33,827 bases of DNA from Bacillota bacterium (GTDB lineage: Bacteria; Bacillota; Clostridia; Christensenellales; Pumilibacteraceae): contig WQYM01000005.1 in the NCBI GenBank assembly GCA_009781235.1, forward strand, positions 1 through 33,827, in the 5' to 3' direction. Below are positions 3,639 through 27,615 of the stretch, one piece after another. The notes under the pieces are model-generated. The model was not told the DNA's origin. It made no database searches and saw nothing but the letters and a program-made list of their open reading frames with translations. Each line of letters opens with the position of its first letter. Within the stretch, counting starts at the first letter, position 1. Both the position numbers and the translations under genes were made by a program.

Positions 3639-3660
3639 AATCAATCCTTTTTTATCGCCT

Positions 3661-3682
3661 AGTGCAGTAGTGCAGTAGTGCA
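3661..3682. repeat. Octamer tandem array (AGTGCAGT) after nusA
   Basis: This array has the same octamer, orientation and gene-relative position as at 154-176. On the minus strand it starts at the nusA stop codon and ends just upstream of the ylxR ribosome-binding site. Confidence 0.85.
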
Positions 3683-4828
3683 TTATTCCAGGTCTCCCAG
3701 GTCTTCCTCGAACAAATCGAGGTCGATATCCTCGTCGGCGGCATGGGGATCCGTGGGCGCGGCAGTCGATTCCGCTTCCTCCGTCTCGTCGGCGCGCAGG
3801 GATGAGTACGGCTTTACGTCGATTTTCCAGCCGGTCAATTTGGCGGCGAGGCGCGCGTTTTGCCCGTCCTTGCCGATGGCCAAACTCAGCATATCGTCCA
3901 TAACTACGGCCTTGGCGCAGCGTTCGTCGTCGTTTGCCTGCACCATGATGACCTTAGCGGGACTAAGGGCGCGCGCGATAAACTCTAAGATGTCGTCGCA
4001 CCACGGGATGATGTCGATTTTTTCGCCTTCCAACTCCGAAACGACCGCGTTGACGCGCATACCGCGGTTGCCGACGCACGCGCCTACGGCATCGATTTCC
4101 GGGTCAACGGAGTAAACGGCCATTTTTGTGCGATACCCCGCCTCGCGTACGATGGATTTGATTGTGATGATGCCGCCGTTAATTTCCGGCACTTCCATCT
4201 CGAATAAACGCTTGACAAATCCGGAAACGGTGCGCGAAACGATGATTTGCGGACCCTTTTGACCCGCCTTAATCTTTTTGACGTACACCTTGATGCGGTC
4301 GCCCACGTTAAAGCGGTCATTGGGCATCTGGTCTTGCGGGTTTAGCACCGCCTCAAGCTTGTTGATTTCGACGTACACGTTCTTGTTGTCGATGCGGCGC
4401 ACGACGCACGAAACCAGTTCGTCCTCTTTTTGGGACAGTTCGCTGTACGCCATTTCGCCCTCGACCTCGCGCAGCTTTTGCATGATGACCTGCTTGGCGG
4501 TTTGGGCGGCGATGCGACCGAAATCCTTAGACGAAATTTCTTCCTGTACGCGGTCGCCCACCTTGTACTTTTTGCTGACAAGCCGGGCGTCCTCGAGGCT
4601 GATTTCTTTTTCTTTGTCCTCGACCTCTTCGACGACGTTTTGGAACGCGTAAACCTTAATCGTGTTGCGGTCGGGCAAAAGCCTAACCTCGACGGCCTTG
4701 GGGGTTCCGGTGTGCTTTTTGTACGCGATGACGAGCGCCGTTTCAAGCGCCTCTAAAAACACATCTTTTTTGATGCGCTTCTCGGCTTCTAAATCGTCCA
4801 GCGCCTGAAAAAAATCCTTGTTGATCAT
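3683..4828 (-). CDS. nusA: Transcription termination/antitermination factor NusA
   Basis: NusA (381 aa) binds RNA polymerase and nascent RNA and modulates pausing, termination and antitermination. The order is an N-terminal RNAP-binding domain (MINKDFFQALDDLEAEKRI), an S1 domain (about 130-200, SCVVRRIDNKNVYVEI), then two KH domains with GACVGNRGMRVNAVVSEL and LAIGKDGQNARLAAKLTGW. An acidic C-terminal tail replaces the AR repeats of proteobacterial NusA, as is normal in Bacillota. The ATG before INKDFF is chosen from the family start, with AAGGAAA about 12 nt upstream. A longer in-frame extension runs into the AT-rich repeat E1 and is not real coding. Confidence 0.96.
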   Translation of the reverse strand: MINKDFFQALDDLEAEKRIKKDVFLEALETALVIAYKKHTGTPKAVEVRLLPDRNTIKVYAFQNVVEEVEDKEKEISLEDARLVSKKYKVGDRVQEEISSKDFGRIAAQTAKQVIMQKLREVEGEMAYSELSQKEDELVSCVVRRIDNKNVYVEINKLEAVLNPQDQMPNDRFNVGDRIKVYVKKIKAGQKGPQIIVSRTVSGFVKRLFEMEVPEINGGIITIKSIVREAGYRTKMAVYSVDPEIDAVGACVGNRGMRVNAVVSELEGEKIDIIPWCDDILEFIARALSPAKVIMVQANDDERCAKAVVMDDMLSLAIGKDGQNARLAAKLTGWKIDVKPYSSLRADETEEAESTAAPTDPHAADEDIDLDLFEEDLGDLE

Positions 4829-4880
4829 GAGCGTGCGGTTTCCTTGTGTAACATTTTTTGTATCTCCGGTTTTATTCAAA

Positions 4881-4974
4881 TTATAAATGATAAATGATAA
4901 ATGATAAATTTTGGACATGATGGAAAGTGTAAAAAAATCCACAATTTATCATTTATCATTTATAATTTATCATT
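4881..4974. repeat. Inverted pair of heptamer arrays (TAAATGA / TCATTTA) between rimP and nusA
   Basis: The left arm (4881-4910) is tandem ATGATAA units. The right arm (4943-4974) is the same heptamer in the opposite orientation, and about 32 bp lie between them. The arms match over more than 20 bp, so the RNA could form a long AT-rich hairpin. The right arm abuts the rimP stop codon. This is the simplest example in the window of an element with heptamer arrays as terminal inverted repeats. Confidence 0.85.
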
Positions 4975-5440
4975 ATTCAAAGCTAACGTACGGCCGAACG
5001 TAGACGACCTTACTATCTTCAAACTGTATTCGCTCGTCGACTGCCTTTACGGTTACGGCAACGGTAACGGTGTGCTCCGCTTTTTCGATCAAAACGCCCT
5101 CGTACACTTTCTTGCCGCGATACGGGTCATAAAGCTTTACTTCTACCTTTTTGCCGTAGTTGCGCTCAAAATCGCGCAGGGTTTTAAAGGGCCGATCCAG
5201 GCCGGGGGACGAAACATTTAAGGTGTACGGCGCGCCCTTGGAGGGGTCTAATTCATCCAACACCGGGTCGATGGCGCGGTGTACCCGCTCGCAGTCGTCT
5301 AAAGTAATCCCGGCCTCGTTTGCAATAAAAAACGTCAAATGCGTATCGCCGCGTTTAACTTCGCATTCGACATCAAGGAGCTCGCAGCCCATGCTTTCGA
5401 CCACGGGCGCTATATGGGATTTGATGAGGGTGATATCCAT
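4973..5440 (-). CDS. rimP: Ribosome maturation factor RimP
   Basis: RimP (155 aa) assists 30S assembly, acting around S19 and the 16S 3' domain. The family pattern is present: VVESMGCELLDVECE near residue 14, DDCERVHRAIDPVLDE, YTLNVSSPGLDRPF, then the C-terminal SH3-like domain (KKVEVKLYDPYRGKKVYEGVL). Length is typical. It is the first gene of the nusA operon here. The ATG has no clear Shine-Dalgarno site. A stable hairpin and a likely promoter lie upstream. The stop codon is embedded in the right arm of the heptamer element at 4881-4974. Confidence 0.95.
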   Translation of the reverse strand: MDITLIKSHIAPVVESMGCELLDVECEVKRGDTHLTFFIANEAGITLDDCERVHRAIDPVLDELDPSKGAPYTLNVSSPGLDRPFKTLRDFERNYGKKVEVKLYDPYRGKKVYEGVLIEKAEHTVTVAVTVKAVDERIQFEDSKVVYVRPYVSFE

Positions 5441-7179: not shown

Positions 7180-7650
7180 ACACCCACCCCCGTAGGGGTC
7201 GCAGTCCTCTGCGACCCGCTGCCGTTGTGCGGGCGAAAAAGCCGTGCCGGGGGGAGGTGTCGGGGGGACGGGGGTGTCGATTTCGGAAAGCAAGTTTCCG
7301 AAACCCCTTCGGGGCACTTCGCGCTGTGCGCTCGTGTCACCACGCCTCGGGCCGCCGTTCGGCGGCCCTCCGTCCCCGAGCCGCCCAAACAAATTGCGCC
7401 CACAACAACAATTCAACGAGGCGGACAGCATTGGAAAGAAGTCGCTTACCGGGGTTGCCGATTCCCCGTAGGGGTCGATGCCCTCATCGACCCGCCGGAT
7501 TCCGATTCCCCCGTAGGGGTCGATCTACAGATCGACCCGCCGGAACAGTCATTTTTAATAAGGTGCGGGACGATGAGGGCATCGTCCCCTACAATAAAAA
7601 ACGCTTGGAACAAAAGAAAGAATCCCTTGAACCCGCTATCACTTATCCCT
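7180..7650. repeat. Interspersed repeat island with four GTAG-type REP hairpins and the GC-rich core
   Basis: No gene is supported here. REP-like units (GTAG followed by an imperfect hairpin ending in CGACCC) lie at 7192-7218, 7468-7493 and 7513-7538, and one in reverse at 7567-7592. Between them (about 7245-7385) is the GC-rich core that also appears in addA and addB. It contains GGGGGGAGGTGTCGGGGGGA, a GGAAAGCAAGTTTCC inverted repeat and CACTTCGCGCTGTGCGCTCG. The long open frames on both strands are consequences of GC-rich repeats. Confidence 0.8.
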
Positions 7651-7690
7651 CGCTTTTTACTTTTAAGTTTTCATTTTTCACTCTTCACTT
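7636..7690. repeat. Degenerate heptamer array plus conserved core at the 3' end of pyrH
   Basis: On the minus strand, units AGTGAAG, AGTGAAA, AATGAAA, ACTTAAA and AGTAAAA start at the pyrH stop. They lead into GCGAGGGATAAGTG and, further on, ATTCTTTCTTTTGTTCC. The same GATAAGTG...TTCTTTTGTTCC core follows other heptamer arrays at 16382-16430 and 29676-29720. Confidence 0.7.
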
Positions 7691-14694: not shown

Positions 14695-16377
14695 ATGGTG
14701 ACGGCAAAGCTTAGTTTAGACGAAGAGTTTTACGATGCAAAAAATGCGGGGGGGGCGTCTACGGATGCCTCTCCGTCGCCGCGCGCCTCCACGCCCGGCA
14801 CAGCGCCGAGGGGCGACGATACCCCGCCACACCAAGCCGAAAACTCTCCTACCTGCGCAGACGCCCGCCCCGCCCCCGGCTCCGACGCCGGCTCTCCCGC
14901 TCCCGTAAACCCCTTGCGCGACGCGCCCGTCGGCAAGCTTTTAGTAAAATTGAGCCTGCCGGCCGTGATTGCCATGCTGGCTAACGCGATTTACAATATC
15001 GTAGACCGGGCGTTTATCGGCAACGCGCAGTACTTGGGCGAGGGCGGCGCGGCAGCCGCGATGGCGGCGCTGCAGTACTGCTTCCCGCCGATGATGATAA
15101 CTTTTGGCATCGCGCTGATGTTCGGCATCGGAGGCTCAGTCCTCTACTCGATTGCGCTCGGAAAACGCGACCACGAATCGGCCAAGCGCATCATGCACAC
15201 CGCGCTCGGGCTGACCCTCGCCGTTTCCGCCGTCCTTTTTATCTTAACGGTCGGCTTTACGGAATGGGTGATGAAGCCGTTTTTGCCCTCGCCCGGCAAA
15301 GGCGCATCCGCCCAAGACCTTGCGAGCCACCGCGCCGTGACGAATATGGCCGTCACATACTTCCGCATCACCTCGTGCGCCGTGATTTTTCAGGCGATTA
15401 ACGTGTTCGGCAACAATTTTATCCGCGCAAACGGCCACCCCATAACCAGTATGCTGGCAATTATGCTGGCGGCTCTTTTAAACGTCCTATTAGATTTTAT
15501 CTTTATTTTTGTGCTAAAGCTCGGCGTGACCGGGGCGGCGGTTGCGACGGTCATCGCGCAGGGGTGCTCCACCGCATGGATTCTCTATTACTTTTTCGGC
15601 AAAAAGAACGGCAAATTCTTTAAAACCGCGCGCTTTAGGCTCGAAATTAAAAAAATCCGGATTGAGCCCAAGCTCAGCCGGAGGATTATTGCGACGGGCT
15701 TCCCGATGTTTGTGTTTCAGGCGGCCAGCAGCATTTTGACGATTGTGCTGACATTCACCGTGTACCGCTATGTGCCGACGGAGGGCTTGGACGGAGCCGG
15801 CGTCGCGGCCGCGCGGGACGCCGCCGTCGCCTCGATTGCCGTCATCAATTCCATCCTGACGCTGCTTTTGATGCCGCTGACGGGCATAAATCAAGGCATG
15901 AACCCGATACTCGGATACAATTACGGCGCGCAAAACTACGGGCGCGTTAAAAAAACGCTTGCTTTGGGCACGGTTGCTGCAAGCGTCTTTGCCCTGTTGG
16001 TGTGGGGCGCGACCCGGCTGTTCCCGGACGAGGTCATCGGGTTTTTTACGCCCTACCCGGAGCTCGTCGACAAAATAAAGCCGGTGCTGAATGCGTGGCT
16101 ACTGGCAACGTTCCTTTTAGGCATTACGGTCGTGGGGGGCAATTATTTTCAAGGGACGGGCAAGGCGGGGCGCGCGATGCTGCTCTCGCTTTTACGCCAG
16201 GTTTTGATTGTGGTGCCGCTGGTGCTTGTACTGCCGCTGAGCTTGGGGTACGACGGGATTTTTTACGCCCAGCCGATTTCCGACGCCGCGGTTACGGCGG
16301 TAACGGTCATCCTGCTGGAATGGGAGTTTTTGAGGAACCCGAAGTACAGGGGGAAGAAAATAGTGAATAGTGAATAG
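14695..16377 (+). CDS. MATE-family efflux transporter
   Basis: 560 aa, about twelve TM helices. MATE proteins export drugs or metabolites in exchange for Na+ or H+. Features are PVGKLLVKLSLPAVIAMLANAIYNIVDRAFIGN at the first helix, GGSVLYSIALGKRD, FGNNFIRANGHP, and the pseudo-repeat second half (LLMPLTGINQGMNPILGYNYGA, GGNYFQGTGKAGRA). About 80 residues before the first helix are Pro/Ala/Ser-rich (STDASPSPRAS, TPPHQAENSP) and probably a disordered cytoplasmic tail, unusual for the family. The start is the first ATG after the promoter. It has no Shine-Dalgarno site, so it is uncertain. The last codons (KKIVNSE) are encoded by a heptamer array. Substrate unknown. Confidence 0.9.
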   Translation: MVTAKLSLDEEFYDAKNAGGASTDASPSPRASTPGTAPRGDDTPPHQAENSPTCADARPAPGSDAGSPAPVNPLRDAPVGKLLVKLSLPAVIAMLANAIYNIVDRAFIGNAQYLGEGGAAAAMAALQYCFPPMMITFGIALMFGIGGSVLYSIALGKRDHESAKRIMHTALGLTLAVSAVLFILTVGFTEWVMKPFLPSPGKGASAQDLASHRAVTNMAVTYFRITSCAVIFQAINVFGNNFIRANGHPITSMLAIMLAALLNVLLDFIFIFVLKLGVTGAAVATVIAQGCSTAWILYYFFGKKNGKFFKTARFRLEIKKIRIEPKLSRRIIATGFPMFVFQAASSILTIVLTFTVYRYVPTEGLDGAGVAAARDAAVASIAVINSILTLLLMPLTGINQGMNPILGYNYGAQNYGRVKKTLALGTVAASVFALLVWGATRLFPDEVIGFFTPYPELVDKIKPVLNAWLLATFLLGITVVGGNYFQGTGKAGRAMLLSLLRQVLIVVPLVLVLPLSLGYDGIFYAQPISDAAVTAVTVILLEWEFLRNPKYRGKKIVNSE

Positions 16378-16507
16378 TGAATAGCTGCGGATAAGTGTTT
16401 GTGTGAATAAGGGCAAATTTCTTTTGTTCCTTAGGAAAAAAAAGAACACTCCTACTGTACACAATCGCAATTATCCCTAACTATTCATTATTCACTATTC
16501 ACTATTC
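16361..16507. repeat. Inverted pair of heptamer arrays (GTGAATA / TATTCAC) between convergent genes
   Basis: The left array (16361-16384) supplies the last codons and stop of the MATE gene. The right array (16481-16507), the same heptamer inverted, supplies the stop of the convergent gene. The core starts with GATAAGTGTTTG and includes TTTCTTTTGTTCC, shared with 7605-7650 and 29676-29720. As transcribed RNA the two arrays would pair and could act as a bidirectional 3'-end structure. Confidence 0.85.
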
Positions 16508-17173
16508 GTTCTCCTCCAGCTCCACCGCATGCGTCTTGCCCCCCTCGCTTTCTTCCCCGTCCGAAAAAATACACGCCTCCTCCGCTTCCCCATCCGCCTC
16601 CTCGTTTCCCGCACCTTCCTCCCCCGCGCCTTCTTCCGATGCGGGGGCGTTTTTTTCGTTTGCCGGTAGCGCGTCTGCCCGCAGCATATGCTTTTTGCAC
16701 AATTTTATCGCGCTTTTGTAGTTAAAAATCGTAAATACTCCGGCAGCCGCCGAAAACGCCGCGCCGGCCGACACCGTCAAAATCAGCGCAAAATCATTAA
16801 AAAATGCGAGTGCCGAAAACGCCGCAAACCCAGACACCGCCAGCTCGACAGAAAAAAATTTCGATGGCCGCGTGCACGGTGACCCGGTCACCGTGCACGC
16901 CCTCTTTTCGCGTTTGACATACTTGCCGTGAGGAAAATTATTGTACTTGCGTGATTCTTCGAATACGGGGGGACGGTGGTGTCGACAATTTTTCTTGCGC
17001 TTGCCCGGCGCTGATTTTTCGGGGTTGTCGAGGGGTCTAACCCCTCGACAACCCCTCGTTAAAAGCGATAAAAGTAATCCTGCTATGAACACGGCGGCGA
17101 TGGTTGCCACCAAAACATAAGCCGCAACATTGCCGTCTAAGCCTACAAAAAAGCTCCGTATATTTTGTGCCAT
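16502..17173 (-). CDS. Hypothetical membrane protein with acidic tail, invaded by palindromes
   Basis: Not recognised. 223 aa from MAQNIRSFF. One TM helix lies near residue 15-38 (AAYVLVATIAAVFIAGLLLSLL), and two more near 105-150 (VELAVSGFAAFSALAFF, LILTVSAGAAFSAAAGVFTIF). The C-terminus is a long Glu/Ala/Gly-rich acidic tail. The stretch between the helices (residues about 40-100) is basic and is encoded by repeat DNA: a GGGGGACGGTGGTGTCGACAA fragment related to the transposase palindromes, a 29-bp palindrome (17024-17052) and a 27-bp palindrome (16872-16898). The frame stays open. No Shine-Dalgarno site; TATGAT ends 9 nt before the ATG. The stop falls inside a heptamer array. Confidence 0.55.
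   Translation of the reverse strand: MAQNIRSFFVGLDGNVAAYVLVATIAAVFIAGLLLSLLTRGCRGVRPLDNPEKSAPGKRKKNCRHHRPPVFEESRKYNNFPHGKYVKREKRACTVTGSPCTRPSKFFSVELAVSGFAAFSALAFFNDFALILTVSAGAAFSAAAGVFTIFNYKSAIKLCKKHMLRADALPANEKNAPASEEGAGEEGAGNEEADGEAEEACIFSDGEESEGGKTHAVELEENE
16872..16898. repeat. 27-bp palindrome within the membrane-protein gene
   Basis: Perfect 12-bp arms (GTGCACGGTGAC / GTCACCGTGCAC) flank a 3-nt centre. It lies in frame, encoding TVTGSPCT. Confidence 0.85.
16968..17058. repeat. Fragment of the GGGGGACGGTGGT palindrome plus a second palindrome
   Basis: GGGGGACGGTGGTGTCGACAA at 16969-16990 resembles one arm of the transposase-flanking palindrome. A separate 29-bp palindrome with 13-bp arms GTTGTCGAGGGGT lies at 17024-17052. 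Both are within an open reading frame. Confidence 0.75.
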
Positions 17174-17822: not shown

Positions 17823-20800
17823 TTACATTTCAATAAACTCGCCGCCGGAAACGGCGAAAACGCTTTTGCGGGCGACGCGCTTTTTAAGAATCCGTCCGGC
17901 TGCCAAAGCGTAAAGCCCGATTTGCCTACGATAGGAAGCCATGAATTCTTCGGCGAGTTTGCCCGTTTTATAGTCGACAATCTCCACCATACCGTCCGCG
18001 TCCTCTATAAGCAGGTCGATAACGCCTTGCAGCAGTACGCCGTTTTCCATGCAATAGATAAACGGCAGCTCGCGGTAAAATTTCCGCCTACTCACGCGCT
18101 CCGCTATTTTTTCAAGCGCGGTATTGGCGGTGTTTTTTTGCAAAAGCCGCGCAAAATCGGGGTAGTTTTTTGAGAAGCCGTCGAAATTTTCGGGGAACGG
18201 CTTAGAAAAATCGGCGGTTTCTAAGAATTTGTGATAGGCGTCCCCGACATCGGTTCCGTACGCAGGTTCGGGGGGCGGGACTCGGGGCTCGGGGTTCGGG
18301 ATTCGGGGGTCGGGGCTCGGGACTCGGGGCTCGGGATTCGGGATTCGGGGGTCGGGATTCGGGGTTCGGGATATTAACTCGTCTTCTTTTAACTGACCAC
18401 TGAAAACTTCCCACTGACCACTGTCCAGGGGCTCGGGGGTCGGGATGGTTACGTTCATTCCCGTAGGGGTCGATTTACAAATCGACCCGCGGGCTGCACA
18501 CCGTGCAACCCCTACGGCTTGCCGGCTCGCGTCCCCTCCGTCGTTTTCTCGCGTCGCTTCGCTCCCCGCGCCTGTAAAAAACATGCCGCCGGCATATTTT
18601 TGCGGCTTCGCCGCACTCCGCCAGCGCATTTTTCGTTTTTCGTTTTTCGTTTCATTTGTAATTTGTTCCGGGACGCCCGATGGGTCGTTCCCTACGGAAA
18701 ATCCCCCTTCGCGCGCCAGTTGCGTTACCGTCGTCTTTACGGGCAATTGCGGGTGCGGGTACACAAAATCCGTGAACTTTCGGACGCAGGCAACAAAGTT
18801 TTCGCTCCCCTGCTTTTCCGGGGGGAGGTGTCGGGGGGACGGGGGCGTTGATTCAAAAATGCAAGATTTTTGAACCCCTGCGGGGCACTTCGCTACGCTC
18901 GTGTCACCACGCCTCGGGTCGCCGGACGGCGACCCTCCGTCCCCGGGCAGAGCCGCAACCAAGGATTCCTGATTCCCCGTAGGGCGGGGACTTGCTCCCG
19001 CCGTTGGGCTTGCTCCCGCCCCTACGGATTGCCGGCTCGCGTCCCCTCCATCGTTTTTCGTTTTTCGTTTTTCGTTTTTCGTTATATTTACCATCGCCGG
19101 GTACAGCCAGTCAAGCCAGCAGCGCGCGTCTATTCCCTCTTTGGGCTCGTAATCCTTCTTGATGCGGCTAAACAGCGCGAGATGGAATTTAGCACGCGTA
19201 CAAGCGACGTACAAAATCCGCATTTCCTCCTCGCACAGTTTTTTGCGCACCTCCAAGACCGCCCGGCGGTACAGGCTGGTTTTGACGGTTTGCCCGCCAA
19301 AAAGATCAAACCACTTAAGCACCGCGCCGAACTTTACATCCAAAATGCAGTCCCTTTTTACATCGTCGAGGTTGAAATTTTTTGAGAGGTTCGGGAGTAT
19401 TACGAACGGGAACTCGAGCCCCTTGGCGGCGTGCACCGTCATAATCCGCACCGCGTCCGCCTCTCCGCCGCCCGAAAGCTTAACCGCGCCCGCCTCCGCC
19501 GCCAAAAGTGCGGCGGCAAAGTCGCGCCCCGCCGAAAGAGCGGAGAGCCTGTCCAAAAACTTAGACAGCCCGTCCGCGGCGTTATGGGCGTCCGGAAGGC
19601 TGAAGGCATATTTAAAATAGTCGTGCTCGGCGCAAACCTTGCCTGCCAAATCCGCAAAGCTGAGTACCCGGGAAAGGTTTTCATAGCGCGCAAGGTTTGC
19701 AAACAGGGCTTGGAGTTTTTGAGAAAGTTCGGGATTCGGGGGTCGGGGGTCGGGGGTCGGGGCTCGGGGGTCGGAGCTCGGGGGTAAGGTATCAGGGCAC
19801 AAGGCACAAGGCACAGGTAATGGATAACGCATATCACCGATACCTGTGACTTGTGCCCTGATACCTATGCCCTCACTCCCATTCTTTCCGTCTTCTTTCA
19901 ACTGACAACTGACAACTGAAAACTGACAACTGTCTCCGGGATTCGGGACGGTTGCGCACATTCCCGTAGGGGTCGAAAGTCCATCCTGCGACCCGCTGCC
20001 GTTGTACGAGGAAAGTGCCGTGCCGGGGGGAGGGGTTGTCACGGGGACATAGTACTTGACAACCCTAACTTTTCCGGGGGGAGGTGTCGGGGGGACGGGG
20101 ACGTCGATTTCGGAAAGCAAGTTTCCGAAACCCCTTCGGGGCACTTCGCGCTGTGCGCTCGTGTCGCCGTAAACCCGTCCCCGGGCAGAGCCGTAACCAC
20201 CACGTCTCGCGTCGCCGTGCGGCGGCCCTCCGTCCCCGGGCAGAGCCGTGCCTGAGCATTCCCGATTCCCCGTAGGGCGGGGACTTGCCCCCGCCGTAAA
20301 GCACGCCACGTCCCCGGGCAAAGCCGTAACCTCACCATCCGCCCCTACGCCCTGACTCCTAACCAAAAATTCCCTCCGACATTCCTCATTCCTAATTTCT
20401 AATTCCTCACTTTCCTGTCCACTGAAAACTTCCCACTGACCACTGACCCCCGTAGGGGTCGATTTACAAATCGACCCGCCGTCCCCGGGCAGAGCCGTAA
20501 TCAAGGATTCCCAATCCCCCGTAGAGGTCGGGTCGCCGGACGGCGACCCTCCGTCCCCCTGCTGTGCCGTAACCGTACAATATTTTTCACACGCCTCAAA
20601 AAACGGCCAATCGCCGCCATCCGGTTGGGCATCCGCCCACAGGCGAATTTGAGCCAATTCCCCGTCGGAAAAATAGCCGCCCAACGGAGACTTTAACACG
20701 GAGACAAGCGCGATATCGTCGCGGCGGTTGTCGATCAGCCGCAGGTAATTGATCAGCCCCCGGATCGCCGGGTTTTCCGCGCCGTCCGCGCTTTTTTGCA

Positions 20801-23207
20801 TCGTTACGGGAACGCCCGCGCGCCGCAGCTTTTCGCTCAAAACCCCGGCAAACTTCCCCATCGAGCGCAGCAGCACCGCGATGTCGCCGAATTCCGCCGC
20901 CCGTTCCGCGCCGTCCTCGGCGATAAACCGCTTTTTAAGCGACAAAATGTGCGCCGTCACCGCATCGGCCTCGGCAGCTTCGGCGGAGGTGTCCGCATCG
21001 GCATCGGGGAATACGTGGTTTTTTACGCTGTACGGGGCTCGGGGGTCGGGCGTCGGGGTTCGGGGTTCGGGACGAGGGAAATTAGGAATTAGGAATGAGG
21101 AGTGAGGAACGGTGGAGGGATTGGGTGTGTTCATTCCCGTAGGGGGCGATGTCCTCGCTGGCCCGCCGGTTGCCAAGTCCCCCGCCAGCGCTGCAAGGCC
21201 TCTCTGCTCCCCGCCTACCGTTGTGCGGGCGCTCATTGCCGTGCCGGGGGGAGGTGTCAGGGGGACGGGGGTGTTGATGCCGAAAGGCAAGCTTTCGCCC
21301 CCCCTACGGGGCACTTCGCGCTGCGCGCTCGTGTCACCACGCCTCGGGTCGCCGTTCGACGACCCTCCGTCCCCGGGCAGAGCCGCAGCCACGGAGTCCC
21401 TCCGACATTCCTCACTCCTCACTCCTAACTCCTCATTCTTCCGACATTCCTCACTCCTCACTCCTAACTCCTCATTCTTCCGACATTCCTCACTCCTCAC
21501 TCCTAACTCCTCATTTCCCACAAGCCGGCACACCACCGGCTCGACGCCCAGCGCGCCCAAGCCCGTCTCGTTAAAGCAAGCCGTGCCCGCATAATCGACG
21601 CCGCCAAACTCGCGGGTCATCGCATCACTAAACACGCGGTCGCAAAAGCGCAATATCCCGCTGTCGCTGCGAAAATTTGCGTTTAAGCGGATTACGAACT
21701 TTTCGTCCTCATAACCCGCAAATATCCCCGGGTCGGAAAGCCGAAAGCCGTAAATGGACTGCTTGACGTCGCCCACGTAAAACCTTTTTGCCGCAATGCG
21801 GGAAAAAATTGCGTCCTGCAAGGGGTTGACGTCCTGAAACTCGTCCACCATCAGCCACCGGAACCTTGCGCCGATTTCCGCAGCTGCATCGGGGTTGCAC
21901 AAAATGCGGTACGCCGCGCGCTCAATGTCGTTAAAATCGCACCGGCTTTTGCGGCGCTTTTTTGCAGCAAAAATTTTTGCGGCGCTTTTAGCAAGCTCGA
22001 CCAAAAGCGCTGTATGCCCCGCCGCAAGCGCAGGGTCGGCGTACGACAGCGCCTCGTCGCGCTCCGCGCAAAAATCCTTGTACGCGCCCCGCAACTTTTT
22101 ATAGCGCTCGTAAAGCGCGGCCTGCGCATCGGACGCGGGTTTAATGACCGGGAGCCTTTTAAGCTCGCCCGCATCGGCAGCAACCTCGTCGTAAAAAACC
22201 GCGACAGAAGCGGCGCAAGACACAAAGCCTGCGTGCTCGCAAGTCGTTTTTAACTCTGCCGCACGCCGTAAAAACCCCCCAAGCAGGCTTTTATAATTCT
22301 CGGAAAGCGCCGCGATATGCCCGGCATGGCCTTGCGTCGCCGCAGCCGATTTTTCAAACCACGCGTCGGGGTCGGGGTGAATGGCGGAGAATTCGTATAT
22401 CCTTTTTACGATAGCCGCCATCCGTTTGTCGTTTCGGCGCGGCGAAAGGATTTCAAAAAGCTCCAAAAAATCGCCTTGGGTCCGGGGTTCGGAGCTCGGG
22501 GCCCGGGGTTCGGGATTCGGGGTTCGGGATATTAACTCGTCTTCTTTTAACTGTCCACTGTCCACCGTCCACTGTCCACTGTCTTGCGCCGCTTCGGCAA
22601 TCGCCTCGTCTACGGAAAGGTTTAGCAGTGCGTCCGACTCGGCCTCGTCCAACACCTCGAACGCGGGGTCGATGTCGTCGGCATAATAAAAATATTCGCG
22701 CGCGATAGAGGCGCAAAACGCGTCTATCGTGGAAATCTGCGCCGTCGGAAGCTGCCCGATGGCACGGGAAGCCCAAGTGGGGGGGCGGGGGTTGGGGATC
22801 GGGGATCGGGGCTCTGTGGTTGGGTATAAGGTATCAGGGCACAAGGCACAAGGCACAGGTAATTGATTTTGCATATCACCGATACCTGTGCCTTGTGCCT
22901 TGATACCTATGCCTTTTTCGGAAGTCGGGATTCGGGACATAAATCCATCTTCTTTCAATTGTCCACCGCCCACTGTCCACTGTCCACTAAGCTGCTGAAG
23001 CAGCTTAGTGCGCATATCGGCAGCCGCGGCTTTGGTGAACGTGCAGACTACCATGGAAGAAAGCTCCTCCCCTGCCGTCAAAAGCCTGAGGATGCGCTGA
23101 ATCATCACGGTCGTTTTACCGCTGCCGGCAGAGGCGGAAACTAAAATTTCGTCGCAGTCGCTTAAGATGGCCGCACGCTGTGCGGGAGTGAATCGGTCTA
23201 AATCCAT
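17823..23207 (-). CDS. addA: ATP-dependent helicase/nuclease subunit A with in-frame repeat insertions
   Basis: 1794 aa against about 1200-1250 in the family. AddAB is the RecBCD-type enzyme of Bacillota: it unwinds and trims double-strand breaks and makes 3' tails for RecA at Chi-like sites. Intact UvrD-type motifs: Q motif FTPAQRAAI, Walker A SASAGSGKTT (24-33), IDAFC, DEFQD near 455, GDVKQSIYGFR, LNANFRSD, HAAKGLEF near 1258 and YVACTRAK. The C-terminal nuclease has GVIDLLIE and DYKTGK (D1745). Six insertions made of heptamers, REPs and GC-rich cores (22772-22985, 22477-22583, 21034-21516, 19728-20575, 18813-19092, 18257-18655) lie between motifs and stay in frame. Without them the length is near normal. 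It starts 2 bp after addB, with AAAGAGGAC as ribosome-binding site. Confidence 0.93.
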   Translation of the reverse strand: MDLDRFTPAQRAAILSDCDEILVSASAGSGKTTVMIQRILRLLTAGEELSSMVVCTFTKAAAADMRTKLLQQLSGQWTVGGGQLKEDGFMSRIPTSEKGIGIKAQGTGIGDMQNQLPVPCALCPDTLYPTTEPRSPIPNPRPPTWASRAIGQLPTAQISTIDAFCASIAREYFYYADDIDPAFEVLDEAESDALLNLSVDEAIAEAAQDSGQWTVDSGQLKEDELISRTPNPEPRAPSSEPRTQGDFLELFEILSPRRNDKRMAAIVKRIYEFSAIHPDPDAWFEKSAAATQGHAGHIAALSENYKSLLGGFLRRAAELKTTCEHAGFVSCAASVAVFYDEVAADAGELKRLPVIKPASDAQAALYERYKKLRGAYKDFCAERDEALSYADPALAAGHTALLVELAKSAAKIFAAKKRRKSRCDFNDIERAAYRILCNPDAAAEIGARFRWLMVDEFQDVNPLQDAIFSRIAAKRFYVGDVKQSIYGFRLSDPGIFAGYEDEKFVIRLNANFRSDSGILRFCDRVFSDAMTREFGGVDYAGTACFNETGLGALGVEPVVCRLVGNEELGVRSEECRKNEELGVRSEECRKNEELGVRSEECRRDSVAAALPGDGGSSNGDPRRGDTSAQREVPRRGGESLPFGINTPVPLTPPPGTAMSARTTVGGEQRGLAALAGDLATGGPARTSPPTGMNTPNPSTVPHSSFLIPNFPRPEPRTPTPDPRAPYSVKNHVFPDADADTSAEAAEADAVTAHILSLKKRFIAEDGAERAAEFGDIAVLLRSMGKFAGVLSEKLRRAGVPVTMQKSADGAENPAIRGLINYLRLIDNRRDDIALVSVLKSPLGGYFSDGELAQIRLWADAQPDGGDWPFFEACEKYCTVTAQQGDGGSPSGDPTSTGDWESLITALPGDGGSICKSTPTGVSGQWEVFSGQESEELEIRNEECRREFLVRSQGVGADGEVTALPGDVACFTAGASPRPTGNRECSGTALPGDGGPPHGDARRGGYGSARGRVYGDTSAQREVPRRGFGNLLSEIDVPVPPTPPPGKVRVVKYYVPVTTPPPGTALSSYNGSGSQDGLSTPTGMCATVPNPGDSCQFSVVSCQLKEDGKNGSEGIGIRAQVTGIGDMRYPLPVPCALCPDTLPPSSDPRAPTPDPRPPNPELSQKLQALFANLARYENLSRVLSFADLAGKVCAEHDYFKYAFSLPDAHNAADGLSKFLDRLSALSAGRDFAAALLAAEAGAVKLSGGGEADAVRIMTVHAAKGLEFPFVILPNLSKNFNLDDVKRDCILDVKFGAVLKWFDLFGGQTVKTSLYRRAVLEVRKKLCEEEMRILYVACTRAKFHLALFSRIKKDYEPKEGIDARCWLDWLYPAMVNITKNEKRKTKNDGGDASRQSVGAGASPTAGASPRPTGNQESLVAALPGDGGSPSGDPRRGDTSVAKCPAGVQKSCIFESTPPSPRHLPPEKQGSENFVACVRKFTDFVYPHPQLPVKTTVTQLAREGGFSVGNDPSGVPEQITNETKNEKRKMRWRSAAKPQKYAGGMFFTGAGSEATRENDGGDASRQAVGVARCAARGSICKSTPTGMNVTIPTPEPLDSGQWEVFSGQLKEDELISRTPNPDPRIPNPEPRVPSPDPRIPNPEPRVPPPEPAYGTDVGDAYHKFLETADFSKPFPENFDGFSKNYPDFARLLQKNTANTALEKIAERVSRRKFYRELPFIYCMENGVLLQGVIDLLIEDADGMVEIVDYKTGKLAEEFMASYRRQIGLYALAAGRILKKRVARKSVFAVSGGEFIEM
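18257..18655. repeat. addA insertion 6: CTCGGGG/ATTCGGG heptamers, CACTGAC heptamers, REPs, TTTTTCG array
   Basis: GGGGCTC/GGGATTC/GGGGGTC heptamers (about 18265-18375) are read as PNPEPR and PSPDPR repeats. CCACTGAC-type units follow (18395-18425). Then a REP with GTAG (18463-18488) and an inverted REP (18491-18515) occur. A TTTTTCG array ends the block near 18627-18655. It lies just upstream of the nuclease domain of AddA. Short stretches in the middle may be native. Confidence 0.8.
18813..19092. repeat. addA insertion 5: GC-rich core, REP pair, TTTTTCG array
   Basis: The core begins CCGGGGGGAGGTGTCGGGGG and ends GTCCCCGGGCAGAGCCG. A REP pair with GTAGGGCGGGGAC follows (18976-19024). A TTTTTCG heptamer array (19049-19083) abuts native codons for VNI. 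It is read as PSPRHLPPEK, a different frame from the same core in insertion 3. Confidence 0.85.
19728..20575. repeat. addA insertion 4 (about 850 bp, largest)
   Basis: Contains GGGGGTC heptamers (19728-19785), the GGCACAA inverted pair (19788-19866), AACTGAC heptamers (19898-19931), REPs, a GGGGACATAGTACTTGAC unit (20036-20062), the GC-rich core and further REPs (20271, 20449, 20519). About 280 codons are read without a stop. Native AddA sequence (FFEACEKY on one side, LSQKLQALFANLARYENL on the other) continues on both flanks. Confidence 0.85.
19788..19866. repeat. GGCACAA heptamers as inverted pair, copy 1 (in addA)
   Basis: GGTATCAGGGCACAAGGCAC leads to three GGCACAA units. An inverted arm ends in CTTGTGCCCTGATACC. 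A second, nearly identical copy of 79 bp lies at 22829-22907, also in addA. Confidence 0.9.
21034..21516. repeat. addA insertion 3: composite element with 39-bp x3 end
   Basis: On the plus strand: GGGTTCG heptamers, GAATTAG/GAGTGAG heptamers, a REP-like unit (21137), the GC-rich core and three copies of a 39-bp unit (21394-21512) that contains the inverted heptamer. The 39-bp unit is read as NEELGVRSEECRK. The two ends carry the same GAGTGAG heptamer in opposite orientation. Confidence 0.88.
22477..22583. repeat. addA insertion 2: GGGGTTC and ACTGTCC heptamer arrays
   Basis: Roughly 107 bp. GGGGTTC/GGAGCTC/GGGATTC units are followed by a constant linker (ATATTAACTCGTCTTC) and then CCACTGT units. 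The same linker and array order occurs in insertion 6 (18365-18425). Confidence 0.85.
22772..22985. repeat. addA insertion 1 with GGCACAA inverted pair copy 2 and ACTGTCC array
   Basis: About 214 bp between native LLQQL and RAIGQLPTAQ. It includes the GGCACAA inverted pair (22829-22907) and CCACTGT heptamers (22965-22987). Its edge touches a perfect 26-bp inverted repeat (22985-23010). Confidence 0.85.
22985..23010. repeat. 26-bp inverted repeat at the edge of addA insertion 1
   Basis: CACTAAGCTGCT and AGCAGCTTAGTG arms flank GA. It encodes native-looking TKLLQQL. The heptamer array starts at its end. Confidence 0.8.
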
Positions 23208-23209
23208 GA

Positions 23210-26200
23210 TTAGTCCTCTTTAGAAAAAATCTCTTCCCGCCCTACCTTTGCATACTTGCGAACCCTGCCTTCCCCGTCCGCGCCAAAGCCGCACATCGCG
23301 CCAAAGCTACAGTAATCGCACACACCCTCGGCGGGGCTTGGCGCAATGTAACCCCCGCACATCTCCTCTAAAGCCTGCTGCGCCACCCGCACGGCGTATT
23401 CCGTCAGCCCGCCAAGCTCCCCCGTGCCCATGCCATACTCCGACTTTGCCATCGGAATAACGCCGTCCGCACCGGGCTTAACATTGCGCTTCGCCTCGAT
23501 GACCGGGCTCTTATACCCGGGCTCGATCAAGCGGCGGTCTGCGGCCGCCAAAAGCTCCCCGGAGTCATTATACACCCCGCATAGGCTGCGCGGCGGCTCA
23601 CCCGCCTCGATTAGCGGCTTTGAGAGCGGAAAGTAAAACATGCCGGCCCCTTGATAGCCGTTTTCCTCCAGCACCTTGGCGTACAGCGGAAGCTGGAGCG
23701 CGCGCCCGTAGTAGAGCTCTGTAGCCGAAAACTTGGGGAGCTTGCCGGTTTTATAATCGATAACGCGCGCAAACCCCCCAAAGGTATCGACGCGGTCAAT
23801 CTTGCCGCGCAGATAAACCGGGGAGGGGCGGGATTCGGGTCGGGGAGAATTAGGAATTAGGAGTGAGGAGTGAGGAACGGTGGAGAGATTGGGTGTGTTC
23901 ATTCCCGTAGGGGTCGATGTCCTCGCTGGCCCGCCGGTTGCCAAGTCCCCCGTAGGGGGCGCAAGTCCTCTCTGCAGCCCGCTGCCGTTGTGCGGTGGCT
24001 CTTGCCGTGCCGGGGGGAGGTGTCGGGGGGACGGGGACGTTGATTCAAAAAGGCAAGCTTTTTGAACCTCCTGCGGAGGCACTCCGCTGCGCTCCGTGTC
24101 ACCGTACCCGTCCCCGGGCAGAGCCGCAGCCACGGAATCCCTCCGACGTTCCTCACTCCTCACTCCTAACTCCTCATTCTTCCGACATTCCTCACTCCTA
24201 ATTCCTAACTCCTCACTCTTCCGACATTCCTCACTCCTCACTCCTAACTCCTCACTTTCCTGACCCCTAGCCCCTAAAAACGCCACCGTTTTTAGGTCGT
24301 TGCCGCGCGCGTGGCCGAACCGCAGCTCTAGACCCAACGGTTTAAACGCGCCCGCCGTGTACGATTCCGCGATGCGCCCGGCAAGGCGCGCGGCCTCGTC
24401 TACCGCGCGCGCCAAGAGGCGCTTGTTTTTTTCCAGCAGCGCGCCGAATTCTTCTTTAGCAATCGAGCCGGCAATCGCCCTCATGCGGTTTTCGGCGTCC
24501 TTAAAGCCGTCTAAAAAGCAGGCTTCGACAAAACGTTCCGCCGCCCGGTGCAAAAAGCTGCCGATGTCGGTAGGCCTGATTTCGCCCGTGTCGCGCTCTT
24601 TTAGCCGCAGCCCCCCGGCGGCAAAGCACCGGTATGGGCAGGCCAAATATTCCTCGAGCCGCGTGGCCGAAACGGTATTATCGCGAAAATAGAGCAAGGG
24701 AGTCCGGGGCTCGGGGCTCGGGGGTCGGGATTCGGGACGAGGAAAATTAGGAATTAGTAGTGAGGAGTGAGGAATAGCGGAGGGATTGGGCATGTTGTTT
24801 CCCGTAGGGGTCGGAGCCCGGCAGTTCGACCCGCTGCCGTTGTGCGGTAACTCTTGCCTTGCCGGGGGGAGGTGTCGGGGGGACGGGGGTGTTGGTTCAA
24901 AAAGGCAAGCTTTTTGAACCTCCTGCGGAGGCACTTCGCGCTGTGCGCTCGTGTCACCACGCCTCGGGCCGCCGCTTAGCGGCTCTCCGTCCCCGGGCAG
25001 AGCCGTAACCGCAGGACTTCGATTCTCCGCCAACGGCGATGCCCTCATCGCCCCGCCGTCCCCCTGCTGTGACGTAACCAATTTACAAAGCTCCGCCGTC
25101 ATCGGCAAGCCCCTGCCGCCTGCCCGCATGTCCGACAGCGCGCCGAGCAAAAGCTCCGCCGCGTTTGAAAGGGTGGAGATTTCGGCCGCCATTTCATTCA
25201 TTTTGGCCGCGTCGTTATGTTCCACCGCGTTGCGGAACGAAAGCCCGTCCGCTAAGCTCCGCCGCGTTTTTTCGACGGAATTGTGTACGACGCTTTTTGC
25301 GCCGCGCGTAACTGCGGACGCCAAATCCGAAATCCGGCTGTCCCCCGCAAGCGAGTACGCCAAAAAAAGCCGGTCGGCGGACGCTAAAACGCGCACCGCC
25401 TCGCACCGGGCGGCGCGAGCCAGCGCATCCGAATCCGGCCCGGCAGCCTTTCCCGCCGCCGAAAGAACGGCGTTATCCGCGTCGGAAAAAAGCCCCCCGG
25501 CTTCCCGGGCTTCAGGCAGAACGCCCTCGCAAAAATCGACGGCGAACACCTCTTTAAACCTCCCCGCGCGGAACGTTTCCGCGCCGCCCACCACTACCGC
25601 GTCCGCCGTTTCGTTGACGAGCGAAATGCCGGTCGCGCCCACACCCTCGGAGAAGAGGGAGAAGAGGGAATGAGGAGTGAGAAGTGAGGGGTGAGGAACG
25701 GCGGATGGGGAATAGGGGATGGGGGATGGGAATACAAATCCGTCTTCTTTTAACTGATCATTGACCACTGACCCCTGACCACTGACCCCCGCCAGCGCTG
25801 CAAGGCCTCTCTGCAGCCCGCTGCCGTTGTGTGAGAAAACTGCCGTGCCGGGGGGGAGGTGTCGGGGGGACAGGGACGTTGATTCAAAAAGGCAAGCTTT
25901 TTGAACCTCCTGCGGAGACACTTCGCTGCGCTCCGTGTCACCGTACCCGTCCCCGGGCAGAGCCGTAACCTCACCATCCGCCGCTACACCCTGATTCCTA
26001 ACCCAAAAATCCCTCCGACATTCCTCACTCCTCACTCCTAACTCTTCATTCTTCCGACATTCCTCACTCCTAATTCCTAACTCTTCATTCTTCCGACATT
26101 CCTCACTCCTCACTCCTAACTCCTCACTCACCTCCCCCCTAACCCCTGAAAGCTGACCCCTGTCCACTGACTCCTGGCCCCTGAAAACCGAAGTTAAAAA

Positions 26201-27580
26201 CTCCGCGGCCTCCAAGAGCCCGTCGTAAATTTGCCCCAAATCCGCGCCCGCGATTTCCGAGAGTTCCGCCGTTTTCTCTTTTGCACCGCATAAGGTAAAT
26301 ACGCCGCGCAAAAAATCACGGAACGCCTCGCCCGTTTTGGCGGACGCGAAAAGCTTGGCGAATTCGGCCAAGAACCCAACGAGCGAGGCGCGCACATTCT
26401 CGGCGGTTTTGGATTCGGGACTCTGGATTCGGGACTCTGACAAATGTGACAAATGGGGACGGATCCATTTGTCATTTTGACAAATGGATCCGTCCCCATT
26501 TGTCACTGGCCACTGACCACTGTCCCCCGCAAACTCCTCCAAAAACCCCTTGTAATTAACGCCCCGGCTCAATACGTACTCCTCAAAAATATCTGCGGCA
26601 CGCTTGTCGATGCCGGAATAATAGTTTTTTGACAATGCAATCATGTCTTGGCGGCGAAAGCGCCCGGCCGCCGAAACGCAAAGCTCTAAAAACCGGAACA
26701 GCTCGGTATCGCGCAAGTTAAGCTTGCGGTCGATGAAAAACGGGATATCAAATTCGGTTAAAATCCGCTCGATCGGCGCGTAATCGGCGGGGGGCGCCAG
26801 GATGCAAAAATCCCGGAACCGTGCGCCCTCTATCACGCCGCGCCGGATGCGCTTTGCCGTCGCTTTGACGCGGTCAGAAATCTCGGCCGCCTCAAAAAAC
26901 TCCATCTCGCCGAATGCATACGTCAGGCTTTCGACGTCGAAAAAGGTATAGGAGGCGGCTTTATCTTCAAAAATCGCCAAAACGTCGCGCTCTAACGCGG
27001 TAAACCGGTCGAAACCCGCGACATAAAAATGCGTGCACGAGAGGTCGTCGTAGGCAATATCGCGTGCAAGCAGCCGCATCCGCCCGGCCAAATCGACGAA
27101 TTTGTTTTCCGTTTCGGCCAAAAACCGCGTGTAGACGCGTGCGATGTCGGCCAGCTTTAAGCCTGCCGCGCCGCCTTTGCCGACAAAATCGGACGGCGCC
27201 AAGCCCGCGTTTGCCGCGACCGAGATTGTTTCGTACATTTTAGCGGCAAAGCCCGGAAGGCGCGCGCTGCTTTTAAAAACGCGGAAATCCTTTTTTACCT
27301 CGTCTACGATGCCGCGCACCAGCATCACCGCGCCGCCCGCCGATAAAAACCCGGGGTCGCGGCGCACAAATTTTTGAAAAAGCCGGTTAAACGTCAGCAC
27401 CTCGACGTCAAACGCGCCGGTTCCCCTTGTAAACAAAAATCGCTCCATGTAAATGGAGCATTTATCCGGGACGACAACGTAATGTTTCACGGCCAAATCG
27501 ACCGTGCGCGCGCATAAGCAATCGCGCACGGCCAAAAATGACGCGTAAAAGTCAGTAAAGGTTTCGACCCGGATTCCCAC
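23210..27580 (-). CDS. addB: ATP-dependent helicase/nuclease subunit B with in-frame repeat insertions
   Basis: About 1456 aa against roughly 1150-1170 in the family. AddB partners AddA in break resection; it carries a nuclease and an Fe-S cluster. Cluster cysteines are present: C981 (ACPYRC) and C1421-x2-C1424-x5-C1430 (VCDYCSFGAMC). The nuclease motif is RGKIDRV...DYKTGK. The N-terminus lacks the usual GRSGSGKT Walker A (VETFTDFYASFLAVRDCL in its place), while VVVPDKCSIYMERFLF is conserved. Four insertions (26405-26527, 25645-26190, 24695-25078, 23820-24285) stay in frame. I place the start at GTG 27580, because a promoter ends 6 nt upstream of it; an in-frame ATG at 27598 lies inside that promoter. 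Confidence 0.9.
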   Translation of the reverse strand: MGIRVETFTDFYASFLAVRDCLCARTVDLAVKHYVVVPDKCSIYMERFLFTRGTGAFDVEVLTFNRLFQKFVRRDPGFLSAGGAVMLVRGIVDEVKKDFRVFKSSARLPGFAAKMYETISVAANAGLAPSDFVGKGGAAGLKLADIARVYTRFLAETENKFVDLAGRMRLLARDIAYDDLSCTHFYVAGFDRFTALERDVLAIFEDKAASYTFFDVESLTYAFGEMEFFEAAEISDRVKATAKRIRRGVIEGARFRDFCILAPPADYAPIERILTEFDIPFFIDRKLNLRDTELFRFLELCVSAAGRFRRQDMIALSKNYYSGIDKRAADIFEEYVLSRGVNYKGFLEEFAGDSGQWPVTNGDGSICQNDKWIRPHLSHLSESRIQSPESKTAENVRASLVGFLAEFAKLFASAKTGEAFRDFLRGVFTLCGAKEKTAELSEIAGADLGQIYDGLLEAAEFLTSVFRGQESVDRGQLSGVRGEVSEELGVRSEECRKNEELGIRSEECRKNEELGVRSEECRRDFWVRNQGVAADGEVTALPGDGYGDTERSEVSPQEVQKACLFESTSLSPRHLPPGTAVFSHNGSGLQRGLAALAGVSGQGSVVNDQLKEDGFVFPSPIPYSPSAVPHPSLLTPHSLFSLFSEGVGATGISLVNETADAVVVGGAETFRAGRFKEVFAVDFCEGVLPEAREAGGLFSDADNAVLSAAGKAAGPDSDALARAARCEAVRVLASADRLFLAYSLAGDSRISDLASAVTRGAKSVVHNSVEKTRRSLADGLSFRNAVEHNDAAKMNEMAAEISTLSNAAELLLGALSDMRAGGRGLPMTAELCKLVTSQQGDGGAMRASPLAENRSPAVTALPGDGEPLSGGPRRGDTSAQREVPPQEVQKACLFEPTPPSPRHLPPARQELPHNGSGSNCRAPTPTGNNMPNPSAIPHSSLLIPNFPRPESRPPSPEPRTPLLYFRDNTVSATRLEEYLACPYRCFAAGGLRLKERDTGEIRPTDIGSFLHRAAERFVEACFLDGFKDAENRMRAIAGSIAKEEFGALLEKNKRLLARAVDEAARLAGRIAESYTAGAFKPLGLELRFGHARGNDLKTVAFLGARGQESEELGVRSEECRKSEELGIRSEECRKNEELGVRSEERRRDSVAAALPGDGYGDTERSGVPPQEVQKACLFESTSPSPRHLPPARQEPPHNGSGLQRGLAPPTGDLATGGPARTSTPTGMNTPNLSTVPHSSLLIPNSPRPESRPSPVYLRGKIDRVDTFGGFARVIDYKTGKLPKFSATELYYGRALQLPLYAKVLEENGYQGAGMFYFPLSKPLIEAGEPPRSLCGVYNDSGELLAAADRRLIEPGYKSPVIEAKRNVKPGADGVIPMAKSEYGMGTGELGGLTEYAVRVAQQALEEMCGGYIAPSPAEGVCDYCSFGAMCGFGADGEGRVRKYAKVGREEIFSKED
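23820..24285. repeat. addB insertion D: composite element with 39-bp x3 end
   Basis: Same order as addA insertion 3: GATTCGGG heptamers, GAATTAG/GAGTGAG array, GTTCATTCCCGTAGGGG REP, GC-rich core with TTCAAAAAGGCAAGCTTTTT, then three 39-bp units (24141-24255) with the inverted heptamer. It lies between native codons for LKTVAFLGA and VYLRGKIDRV. Confidence 0.88.
24695..25078. repeat. addB insertion C: composite element without 39-bp units
   Basis: GGGGCTC heptamers and the AATTAG/GTGAGGA array are followed by a REP-like unit and the GC-rich core. The right heptamer trimer is missing. Instead the block ends in a GATGCCCTCATCGCCCCGCC REP half and CCGTCCCCCTGCTGTGACG, close to native CKL. Confidence 0.85.
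25645..26190. repeat. addB insertion B: composite element with 39-bp x3 end and CCCCTGA-type heptamers
   Basis: Left end with GAGTGAG/GAAGTGA heptamers, a CACTGACC array (25760-25795), the GC-rich core, three 39-bp units (26008-26125), then CCCCTGA/CACTGACTC units. About 180 codons are open. Native sequence flanks it (SEGVGATGISLVNE and GLLEAAEFLTSVF). Confidence 0.85.
26405..26527. repeat. addB insertion A carrying a perfect 59-bp GGGGACGG palindrome
   Basis: ATTCGGGACTCT heptamer-like units precede the palindrome at 26447-26505 (28-bp arms beginning TGACAAATGGGGACGGATCC, centre TTT). CACTGACC/CACTGTCC heptamers follow. The palindrome has the same design as that at 33313-33371. Confidence 0.9.
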
Positions 27581-27586
27581 ACCGTA

Positions 27587-27615
27587 AGTATACGGCATTT
27601 GAAACGATTTTGCAA
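27587..27615 (-). promoter_or_regulatory. addB promoter, leaderless arrangement with GTG
   Basis: -35 TTGCAA (27610-27615), spacer 17 bp, -10 TATACT (27587-27592), then TACGGT and GTG. The spacing is identical to the transposase, BspA-like and lysA promoters. Confidence 0.65.

Follow-up and report, generated by a model that had tools for sequence, protein, structure and literature searches.

Matched heptamer arms of a rimP-nusA hairpin element in a Clostridia genome, and their occurrence around PF05635 genes

Between rimP and nusA of an uncultured Clostridia, two arrays of one heptamer face each other across a short core, while other elements of the same DNA carry other heptamers at their two ends. 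What such an element is, and how its two ends come to carry the same unit, was the question raised by this locus. It lies in a stretch of 33,827 nucleotides, referred to as the window, which is contig C5 of a single metagenome-assembled genome (MAG; 2.53 Mb in 247 contigs). The features of the locus were as follows.

3683 to 4828, minus strand: nusA (PF08529, PF13184).
4878 to 4909, plus strand: left heptamer arm of the rimP-nusA element, AAATGAT units, purine-rich strand running inward.
4910 to 4943, no strand: core of the element, 34 bp, with GGA...TCC immediately within the arms.
4944 to 4974, minus strand: right heptamer arm, the left arm's inverted copy, with the rimP stop at its outer edge.
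4973 to 5440, minus strand: rimP (PF02576, PF17384), the stop of which touches the element.

On the plus strand the units read AAATGAT (4878-4909) and ATTTATC (4944-4974), and the arms match at 29 of 31 nt. The opposed arrays of one heptamer reported in a preliminary description of this DNA were thus found, although the core is 34 bp rather than 32 bp. As single-stranded DNA the element has a predicted fold of -21.8 kcal/mol (z -6.9), which was equalled by none of 200 shuffles. A 5-bp TGAAT repeat flanks the element, and carries little weight because no target-site duplication was seen across 66 elements. The other genomes that were inspected have a short gap between rimP and nusA, with no heptamer-armed element in it; the closest named match of the window's NusA is 76% identical.

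The possibility was considered that the element is an intervening sequence (IVS) of 23S rRNA, and it does have terminal inverted repeats able to form a long stem. However, it is located between two protein genes and not inside a 23S rRNA gene, and its 34-bp core contains no ORF for PF05635, the four-helix-bundle 23S rRNA intervening-sequence protein (S23). The identification as an IVS was rejected because the site is outside rRNA and the ORF is absent. No Rfam family match was found in the whole window. On the preferred reading, the element is a short member, without an ORF, of a dispersed hairpin class that also has PF05635-coding members; it looks like a non-coding relative of these.

The window contains 43 period-7 arrays and at most four of any other period from 2 to 15, the harmonic 14 aside. 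The further elements to which the text refers are these.

7607 to 7689, minus strand: core motif (7607-7647, minus strand) and a degenerate heptamer arm at 7653-7689.
16359 to 16507, plus strand: AATAGTG-armed element whose core contains GATAAGTG-N21-TTCTTTTGTTCC at 16390-16430.
19788 to 19866, no strand: GGCACAA-armed palindrome within the addA-like ORF.
22829 to 22907, no strand: second copy of the GGCACAA palindrome.
27683 to 27809, plus strand: mixed-arm element, GAATTAG left and TACAAAT right, with GGA at both junctions; an exception to arm matching.
29645 to 29858, plus strand: element with AATGAAA/AACGAAA arms, a nested repeat and the GATAAGTG-N21-TTCTTTTGTTCC core motif at 29680-29720.
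30714 to 30909, plus strand: mixed-arm element, GAATGAC left and TACAAAT right; an exception to arm matching.

The design of the rimP-nusA element had been described at several of these places. It was recovered at 16361-16507 (here 16359-16507) and at 29645-29858, where the arms match at 27 of 31 and 26 of 32 nt, respectively. The palindromes at 19788-19866 and 22829-22907 do have GGCACAA arms, but they agree in 79 of 87 alignment columns and thus represent one element in two near-identical copies, not two independent cases. The extension to the composites of addA/addB failed, most array pairs there being unmatched (inverted similarity 3-5 of 7).

The AddA-like ORF (17823-23207, minus strand) has 1794 aa, compared with open frames of 1058-1135 aa in four related genomes; about six stretches that the relatives lack consist of composite repeats, which are in frame and recur in many copies at other places of the genome. 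The AddB-like ORF (23210-27598, minus strand, 1462 aa) has composite insertions that are also kept in frame. G-rich arrays of CGGGATT-type heptamers in the AddA-like ORF (18276-18370, 19728-19781 and 22478-22528) could form G-quadruplexes. Three ORFs of the window terminate within heptamer arms (16359-16384, 16482-16507 and 29820-29858); with a period of 7, a stop-containing unit repeated three times places a stop in each of the three frames.

Arrays were then counted over 807 kb, about a third of the MAG, made up of the window and 40 stretches from C1-C41, and arms were scored with simple ungapped methods. There were 396 period-7 arrays (221 in the first sample, 175 in the replicate). Among minimal-period arrays with periods from 2 to 30, 299 had period 7, 35 had period 8, and no other period exceeded 11. 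Adjacent arrays separated by 0-160 bp formed 148 pairs, 62 of them inverted copies (at least 6 of 7), whereas 2000 shuffles of the right partners gave 11 on average and never more than 22; direct-orientation matches numbered 18. Arm length peaked at 31-32 bp (45/132 paired arms). The purine-rich strand tends to run inward, 165 neighbouring pairs within 220 bp comprising 94 convergent, 7 divergent and 64 codirectional pairs. GGA[TC] stood at the inner edge of 90/132 paired arms and at the outer edge of 2/132, against a genome background of 6%; in unpaired arrays it stood on the purine-inward side in 108/264 and on the other side in 6/264.

It could be argued that such arrays reflect chance, or an assembly artefact of 7-nt simple-sequence slippage, and among long simple repeats, heptamers are indeed the most frequent kind in many bacteria (Mrazek 2007, cited in the part of PMC4679880 consulted). 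However, inverted matching, polarity and junction are far above shuffled or background rates, and the same design occurs in complete plasmids of other phyla, which leaves this account scarcely credible. Three 20-kb stretches of the MAG (L019, L020 and L024) lack any period-7 array and are possibly foreign contigs. In a congener (G001; L138, L139 and L143) a few 31-bp AATGGAR heptamer arrays were observed, one of them beside TTCGGCTAAG and a different repeat body.

The claim that both ends always carry the same unit was examined in the 38 convergent pairs with a GGA junction at both ends. It held for 33, which match at 6 of 7 or better, but not as a rule without exception, since 5 match at only 5 of 7; two of these are the mixed-arm elements of the window (27683-27809 and 30714-30909). 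A set of 66 elements had been chosen by unit similarity of at least 6 and is for this reason unfit to measure how often arms match. This selection bias was avoided by picking elements by a core-end profile, which gave 49 matches at E<=0.01; 38 were flanked by arrays on both sides, and the other 11 did not enter the arm counts. In this core-defined set the arms match at 6 of 7 or better in 34/38 (shuffled mean 12.8, maximum 22). The comparison of similarity within and between elements, which had been proposed as a check, therefore came out in favour of matched ends in each set, with 34/90 and 28/58 inverted matches in the two halves of the sample (shuffled means 6.1 and 5.0) and the 34/38 just given.

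Many element cores are homologous, a relation that the preliminary description had missed, and the core can therefore replace the arms as the basis for sampling elements. A family of 34 elements linked by blastn has 13 different left units, which bears out the statement that units differ between elements. For example, the cores of the window element at 16359 (AATAGTG arms) and of L026:12686 (AGTGATA arms) are 87% identical over 90 bp, and those of L042:8836 (AGCGAAT-type arms) and L031:17548 (AACGAAA arms) are 88% identical over 142 bp. A frequent core end, GATAAGTG followed after about 21 nt by TTCTTTTGTTCC, has 32 exact copies in this genome; it was absent from the 73 other family genomes, from 395 other genomes sampled from the order, and from the viral contigs searched. 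The contrast between this genome and the family and order samples points to a recent, species-level expansion. A blastn search of the element at 16340-16540 against plasmids gave no match.

The AGTGATA arm type also occurs with several unrelated cores. This, and the finding of cores with many arms, would be expected if cores inserted into pre-existing heptamer palindromes, the arms being the target. However, core-less palindromes are rare (3/36 with a gap of less than 10 bp), two of their short loops resemble core-junction remnants, and the GGA junction keeps a near-fixed register with the arm. Insertion into ready-made arms is accordingly very improbable.

Near-identical cores were found at unrelated flanks (100% over 86 bp and 97.5% over 79 bp), and among 80 elements no homologous long outer flanks were found except where neighbours overlap each other. 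Such cores, together with the rimP-nusA gaps that lack the element elsewhere, support dispersal as whole units. No target-site duplication was detected, the direct repeats in the flanks of 66 elements being no longer than permuted ones. No transposase ORF was recognised in 12 long matched-arm intervals, some of which were covered by the family search. The genome has 7 Y1 transposase ORFs; the 6 loci examined all lack the core motif, and at two of them heptamer arrays lie nearby with no matching pair seen around the gene. REP sequences have a GTAG or CGTC tag and a flanking Y1 transposase gene (PMC3733652). Mobilisation of the REP/RAYT kind was rejected, as the junction here is GGA(T) and the Y1 loci examined are without the core. 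Several of the RAYT/IS200-type Y1 transposase ORFs (L195-L200) have palindromes of their own, of other sequence.

The elements are short, non-coding and dispersed and have terminal inverted repeats, as MITEs do. If they were ordinary MITEs, the ends would match by descent from one founder per subfamily, with no copying from end to end. The behaviour of the two arms among core relatives bears on this explanation. In the core-defined set, left-right identity within an element was 0.909, versus 0.793 when the left arm was compared with the nearest core relative's right arm; own arms were closer in 28 elements and less close in 8, with 2 ties (Wilcoxon p=0.0008, n=38). Own arms were also closer in 16/19 elements with cores of at least 60 bp and at least 80% identity (p=0.0044), and in 12/15 with cores of at least 75 bp (p=0.035). 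In 15 disjoint core-related pairs, both arms had changed in 5, neither in 8, the right only in 2 and the left only in none, so that changes fall on both arms together (Fisher p=0.0070 at an identity threshold of 0.80, 0.011 at 0.75 and 0.0037 at 0.90). The claim that the ends evolve in concert therefore stood in 28/36 untied comparisons and in the joint changes, but not in the stricter test, in which own left-right identity was set against the better of the left-left and right-right identities with the nearest relative (10/18, p=0.81, not significant).

Changes that land on both arms together are not what descent from a single founder would predict. It would also need matched-arm founders of many units while cores stayed 80-88% alike, and a transposase that recognises a fixed end sequence would be unlikely to accept the 13 units found within a single core family. 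On the other hand, scattered copies with unrelated flanks are as expected of MITEs, and the fine structure of the AGTGATA elements agrees with a founder. Their arms have a common 31-bp form with one irregular unit, and many of them have this same irregular unit on both sides. Private variants are mostly unshared, being common to both arms in 2/23 cases in 13 untruncated AGTGATA elements (hand count). Descent from MITE founders alone is thus possible, but rather unlikely.

The sharing of variants was evaluated further. AATGATA and AGTGATA arms differ by the same base in each of the five units, in the left arm and the right arm alike; at L031:14719 the irregular unit is retained on both arms. 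When all 20 listed elements were counted, sharing was 19 compared with 6.1 in shuffles, an excess that is due to whole-class differences. Within the AACGAAA class it was 11 compared with 6.1, and 189 of 2000 shuffles were as high. A class-restricted permutation of arms showed a slight within-element excess only (0.952 vs 0.945; 10/500). Arm matching did not clearly rise or fall with distance from the core. The orthologous sites compared were those of other species, so that no single-lineage, single-site arm change is among them. Because private variants are seldom common to both arms, the arms look as if they were homogenised when an element or subfamily was founded and drifted later. These variant patterns do not support a continuous copying from end to end in an element that has already settled. 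Hairpin-templated synthesis, which had been proposed, is a possible source of the matching. Simple hairpin copying would predict that arm identity falls with core length; however, the fall was not significant (rho -0.22, p=0.18).

Matching could also be maintained by selection for a hairpin formed by RNA or DNA, such as a terminator, an mRNA stabiliser or a protein-binding site, with compensatory change. The strong predicted folds are in keeping with this, as is the proximity of many elements to stop codons (33/56 neighbouring stops lie within 10 bp or overlap). However, the orientation of neighbouring genes is as expected: 38 elements lie between tandem, 9 between convergent and 7 between divergent genes, compared with 298, 65 and 65 intergenic gaps. 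A terminator or gene-orientation role was rejected on this absence of bias. Moreover, 8/62 placed elements are inside ORFs (as called by a heuristic), the window has no Rfam family, and private variants are rarely compensated, which makes hairpin selection improbable as the cause. The 8 intragenic elements (e.g. L013:12621 and L036:8112) have other units, of the AATTAGG, GGAGTGA and GTGGTCA types. They have at least one open frame; 47/58 of the other elements have none.

Longer matched-arm intervals were found to contain genes. Two of them, L021:6299-6742 and L043:2810-3328, have one PF05635 ORF each (E about 1e-27). Each of the 9 PF05635 genes in this genome is framed by matched inverted arms, which are heptamers in eight cases and octamers in one, with units that differ. 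The unit classes AATGATA, AACGAAA, AGCGAAT and AACAGAT are common to coding and ORF-less members, and a GGA junction is present at 13/18 ends of the PF05635 elements in this genome (hand count). The octamer TAGTGCAG, which forms arrays at 153-175 and 3660-3682 of the window, also forms the matched arms of a PF05635 remnant at L238. Among solved structures, 2rld is related to PF05635 (E 2e-35), and 2gsc, the Xanthomonas campestris protein XCC0516, is so weakly. PF05635 is not known as a transposase family.

PF05635 was found in 73/398 genomes of the phylum. The best-scoring 29 loci from the matched genomes were taken, which is not a random choice, and one short locus was dropped to leave 28. 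The control for the arm scores was 136 windows from nusA loci, with a maximum of 13. Scores were above this maximum in 20/28 loci and above the 95th percentile in 24/28, the remaining 8/28 not exceeding the maximum. With mismatched phylum loci as the control, 20/28 were above the 95th percentile and just 1/28 above the 99th, the latter because of a few very high control values. Period-7 arrays numbered 26 in the 19.8 kb within the PF05635 genes or 200 bp of them, and 15 in the 61.6 kb more than 400 bp away.

The arms also led to the gene in other phyla. A gene on a cyanobacterial plasmid was spotted by its AATTCAA arms first and then identified as PF05635 (E 7.6e-22), and in 200 kb of cyanobacterial plasmids the same array detection gave inverted matched pairs in 3/3 adjacent pairs. 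A plasmid set of 18 of 25 matching records, hand-picked and not random, and excluding the record that prompted the search (L224), covered Cyanobacteriota, Spirochaetota, Chloroflexota, Bacteroidota and Bacillota. All 18 PF05635 genes scored above the control maximum, and period-7 arrays are present at 16/18, their units including CAATTCG, TAATTCG, CAAGTCG, GAGGTCG, AAAGTAA and TTAGTGA. With mismatched plasmid loci, which share units, as the control, 14/18 were above the 95th percentile. The GGA junction is not general at the plasmid elements. The association of PF05635 with matched heptamer arms is new here; searches of open-licence PMC papers turned up no report of this link, or of one tying heptamer repeats, IVS elements and hairpin change together.

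We hold with moderate confidence that these elements form a dispersed hairpin class, including the PF05635 members, which spreads as units and has arms that are matched at birth by hairpin copying. An end consists of about 31 bp of purine-rich heptamers that run inward, with a GGA(T) junction at their inner edge; the left end recurs inverted as the right one, and coding members have the PF05635 gene between arms of this kind. The anatomy, the matching, the joint change and the association with PF05635 are shown by the results above, whereas mobility, hairpin copying and a dependence of the ORF-less form on the coding form are inferred. Whole elements would spread into intergenic sites and, where the units are free of stops, into genes. 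Arm units would turn over faster than the core, by slippage within one arm and hairpin copying between arms, and for these reasons the ends would be matched at birth and drift later. The copying could occur by template switching in replication or by repair or synthesis on a folded intermediate while the element is copied; since shared private variants are rare, the folded intermediate would be weakly favoured.

Known systems resemble parts of this class; the following comparisons refer to the parts of each source that were consulted. The Coxiella burnetii IVS has a 28-bp terminal stem with the S23 gene between the arms and, before the S23 ORF, tandem GACAGAT heptamers in strain-variable number (PMC4990558). 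It is like the present elements in its terminal inverted repeats, its heptamers and the PF05635 gene between arms. However, it lies in helix 45 of 23S rRNA, whereas the present elements lie between or inside protein genes, are mostly without an ORF, and have a heptamer that varies per element. In the same source the mobility of the IVS is a hypothesis, and the origin and function of 23S rRNA IVSs are described as unclear.

The heptamers GGGAATC of Xanthomonas and GGGGA(T/C)T of Nostoc occur mostly as four units, in convergent inverted pairs, of which 70 and 75 cases are reported in two genomes (PMC4692102). Such convergent pairs are inverted repeats like the present arms, but there is one unit type per genome, and the consulted part of that paper describes no conserved core, no unit change between elements and no PF05635 link. 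In the P6b stem of the Nostoc tRNA-Leu intron both sides belong to the same one of two heptamer classes, and replacement of one class by the other has happened repeatedly (PMC4476775). Common class and class switches are shared with the present elements; P6b, however, is a single site in a group I intron, and the present elements are dispersed. The TAACTGA repeats of Beggiatoaceae, cyanobacteria and Bacteroidetes, with 169 direct sets and one indirect repeat in the source genome, are heptamers scattered between genes like the present arrays, but have one unit and are nearly all direct (PMC4679880). Tandem heptamers between genes, the mark of cyanobacterial (STRR-like) heptamer repeats, are present here as well. 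Template switching is a known process by which the two arms of an inverted repeat become identical in a single step, and the spacer may be inverted by it; the cases described in the consulted text are unrelated short inverted repeats and RNA genes, with no repeat family of changing units (PMC8604942, PMC8794818).

A wider reading is offered tentatively, as possible but open to doubt. PF05635 and matched arms may constitute one widespread mobile class that copies itself via a hairpin of folded RNA or single-stranded DNA. In synthesis on this hairpin one arm would serve as template for the other, so that copies would be born matched and the heptamer could still change freely. The hairpin might be bound or packaged by the four-helix-bundle protein. 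ORF-less palindromes, 23S rRNA IVSs and many heptamer repeats of cyanobacteria and other phyla would then be non-coding, rRNA-landed and decayed forms, respectively. Three separate literatures, on heptamer repeats, on IVS elements and on hairpin-templated change of inverted repeats, are joined by these elements. Orphan PF05635 genes are assigned to a defined element with ends, the joint change of the two ends becomes a directly testable question, and the arms that frame PF05635 in several phyla offer a way into how such elements spread.

The neighbourhoods of a few PF05635 elements were recorded as well. A cas1 gene adjoins the element on three cyanobacterial plasmids (L268, L274 and L283), in two of which the element lies between cas2 and cas1, and at L285 a PF05635 element lies between hsdS-like and hsdR-like genes. 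Finally, the window contains, at 32554-33094, a 252-bp direct repeat of 2.1 copies that are 91% alike.
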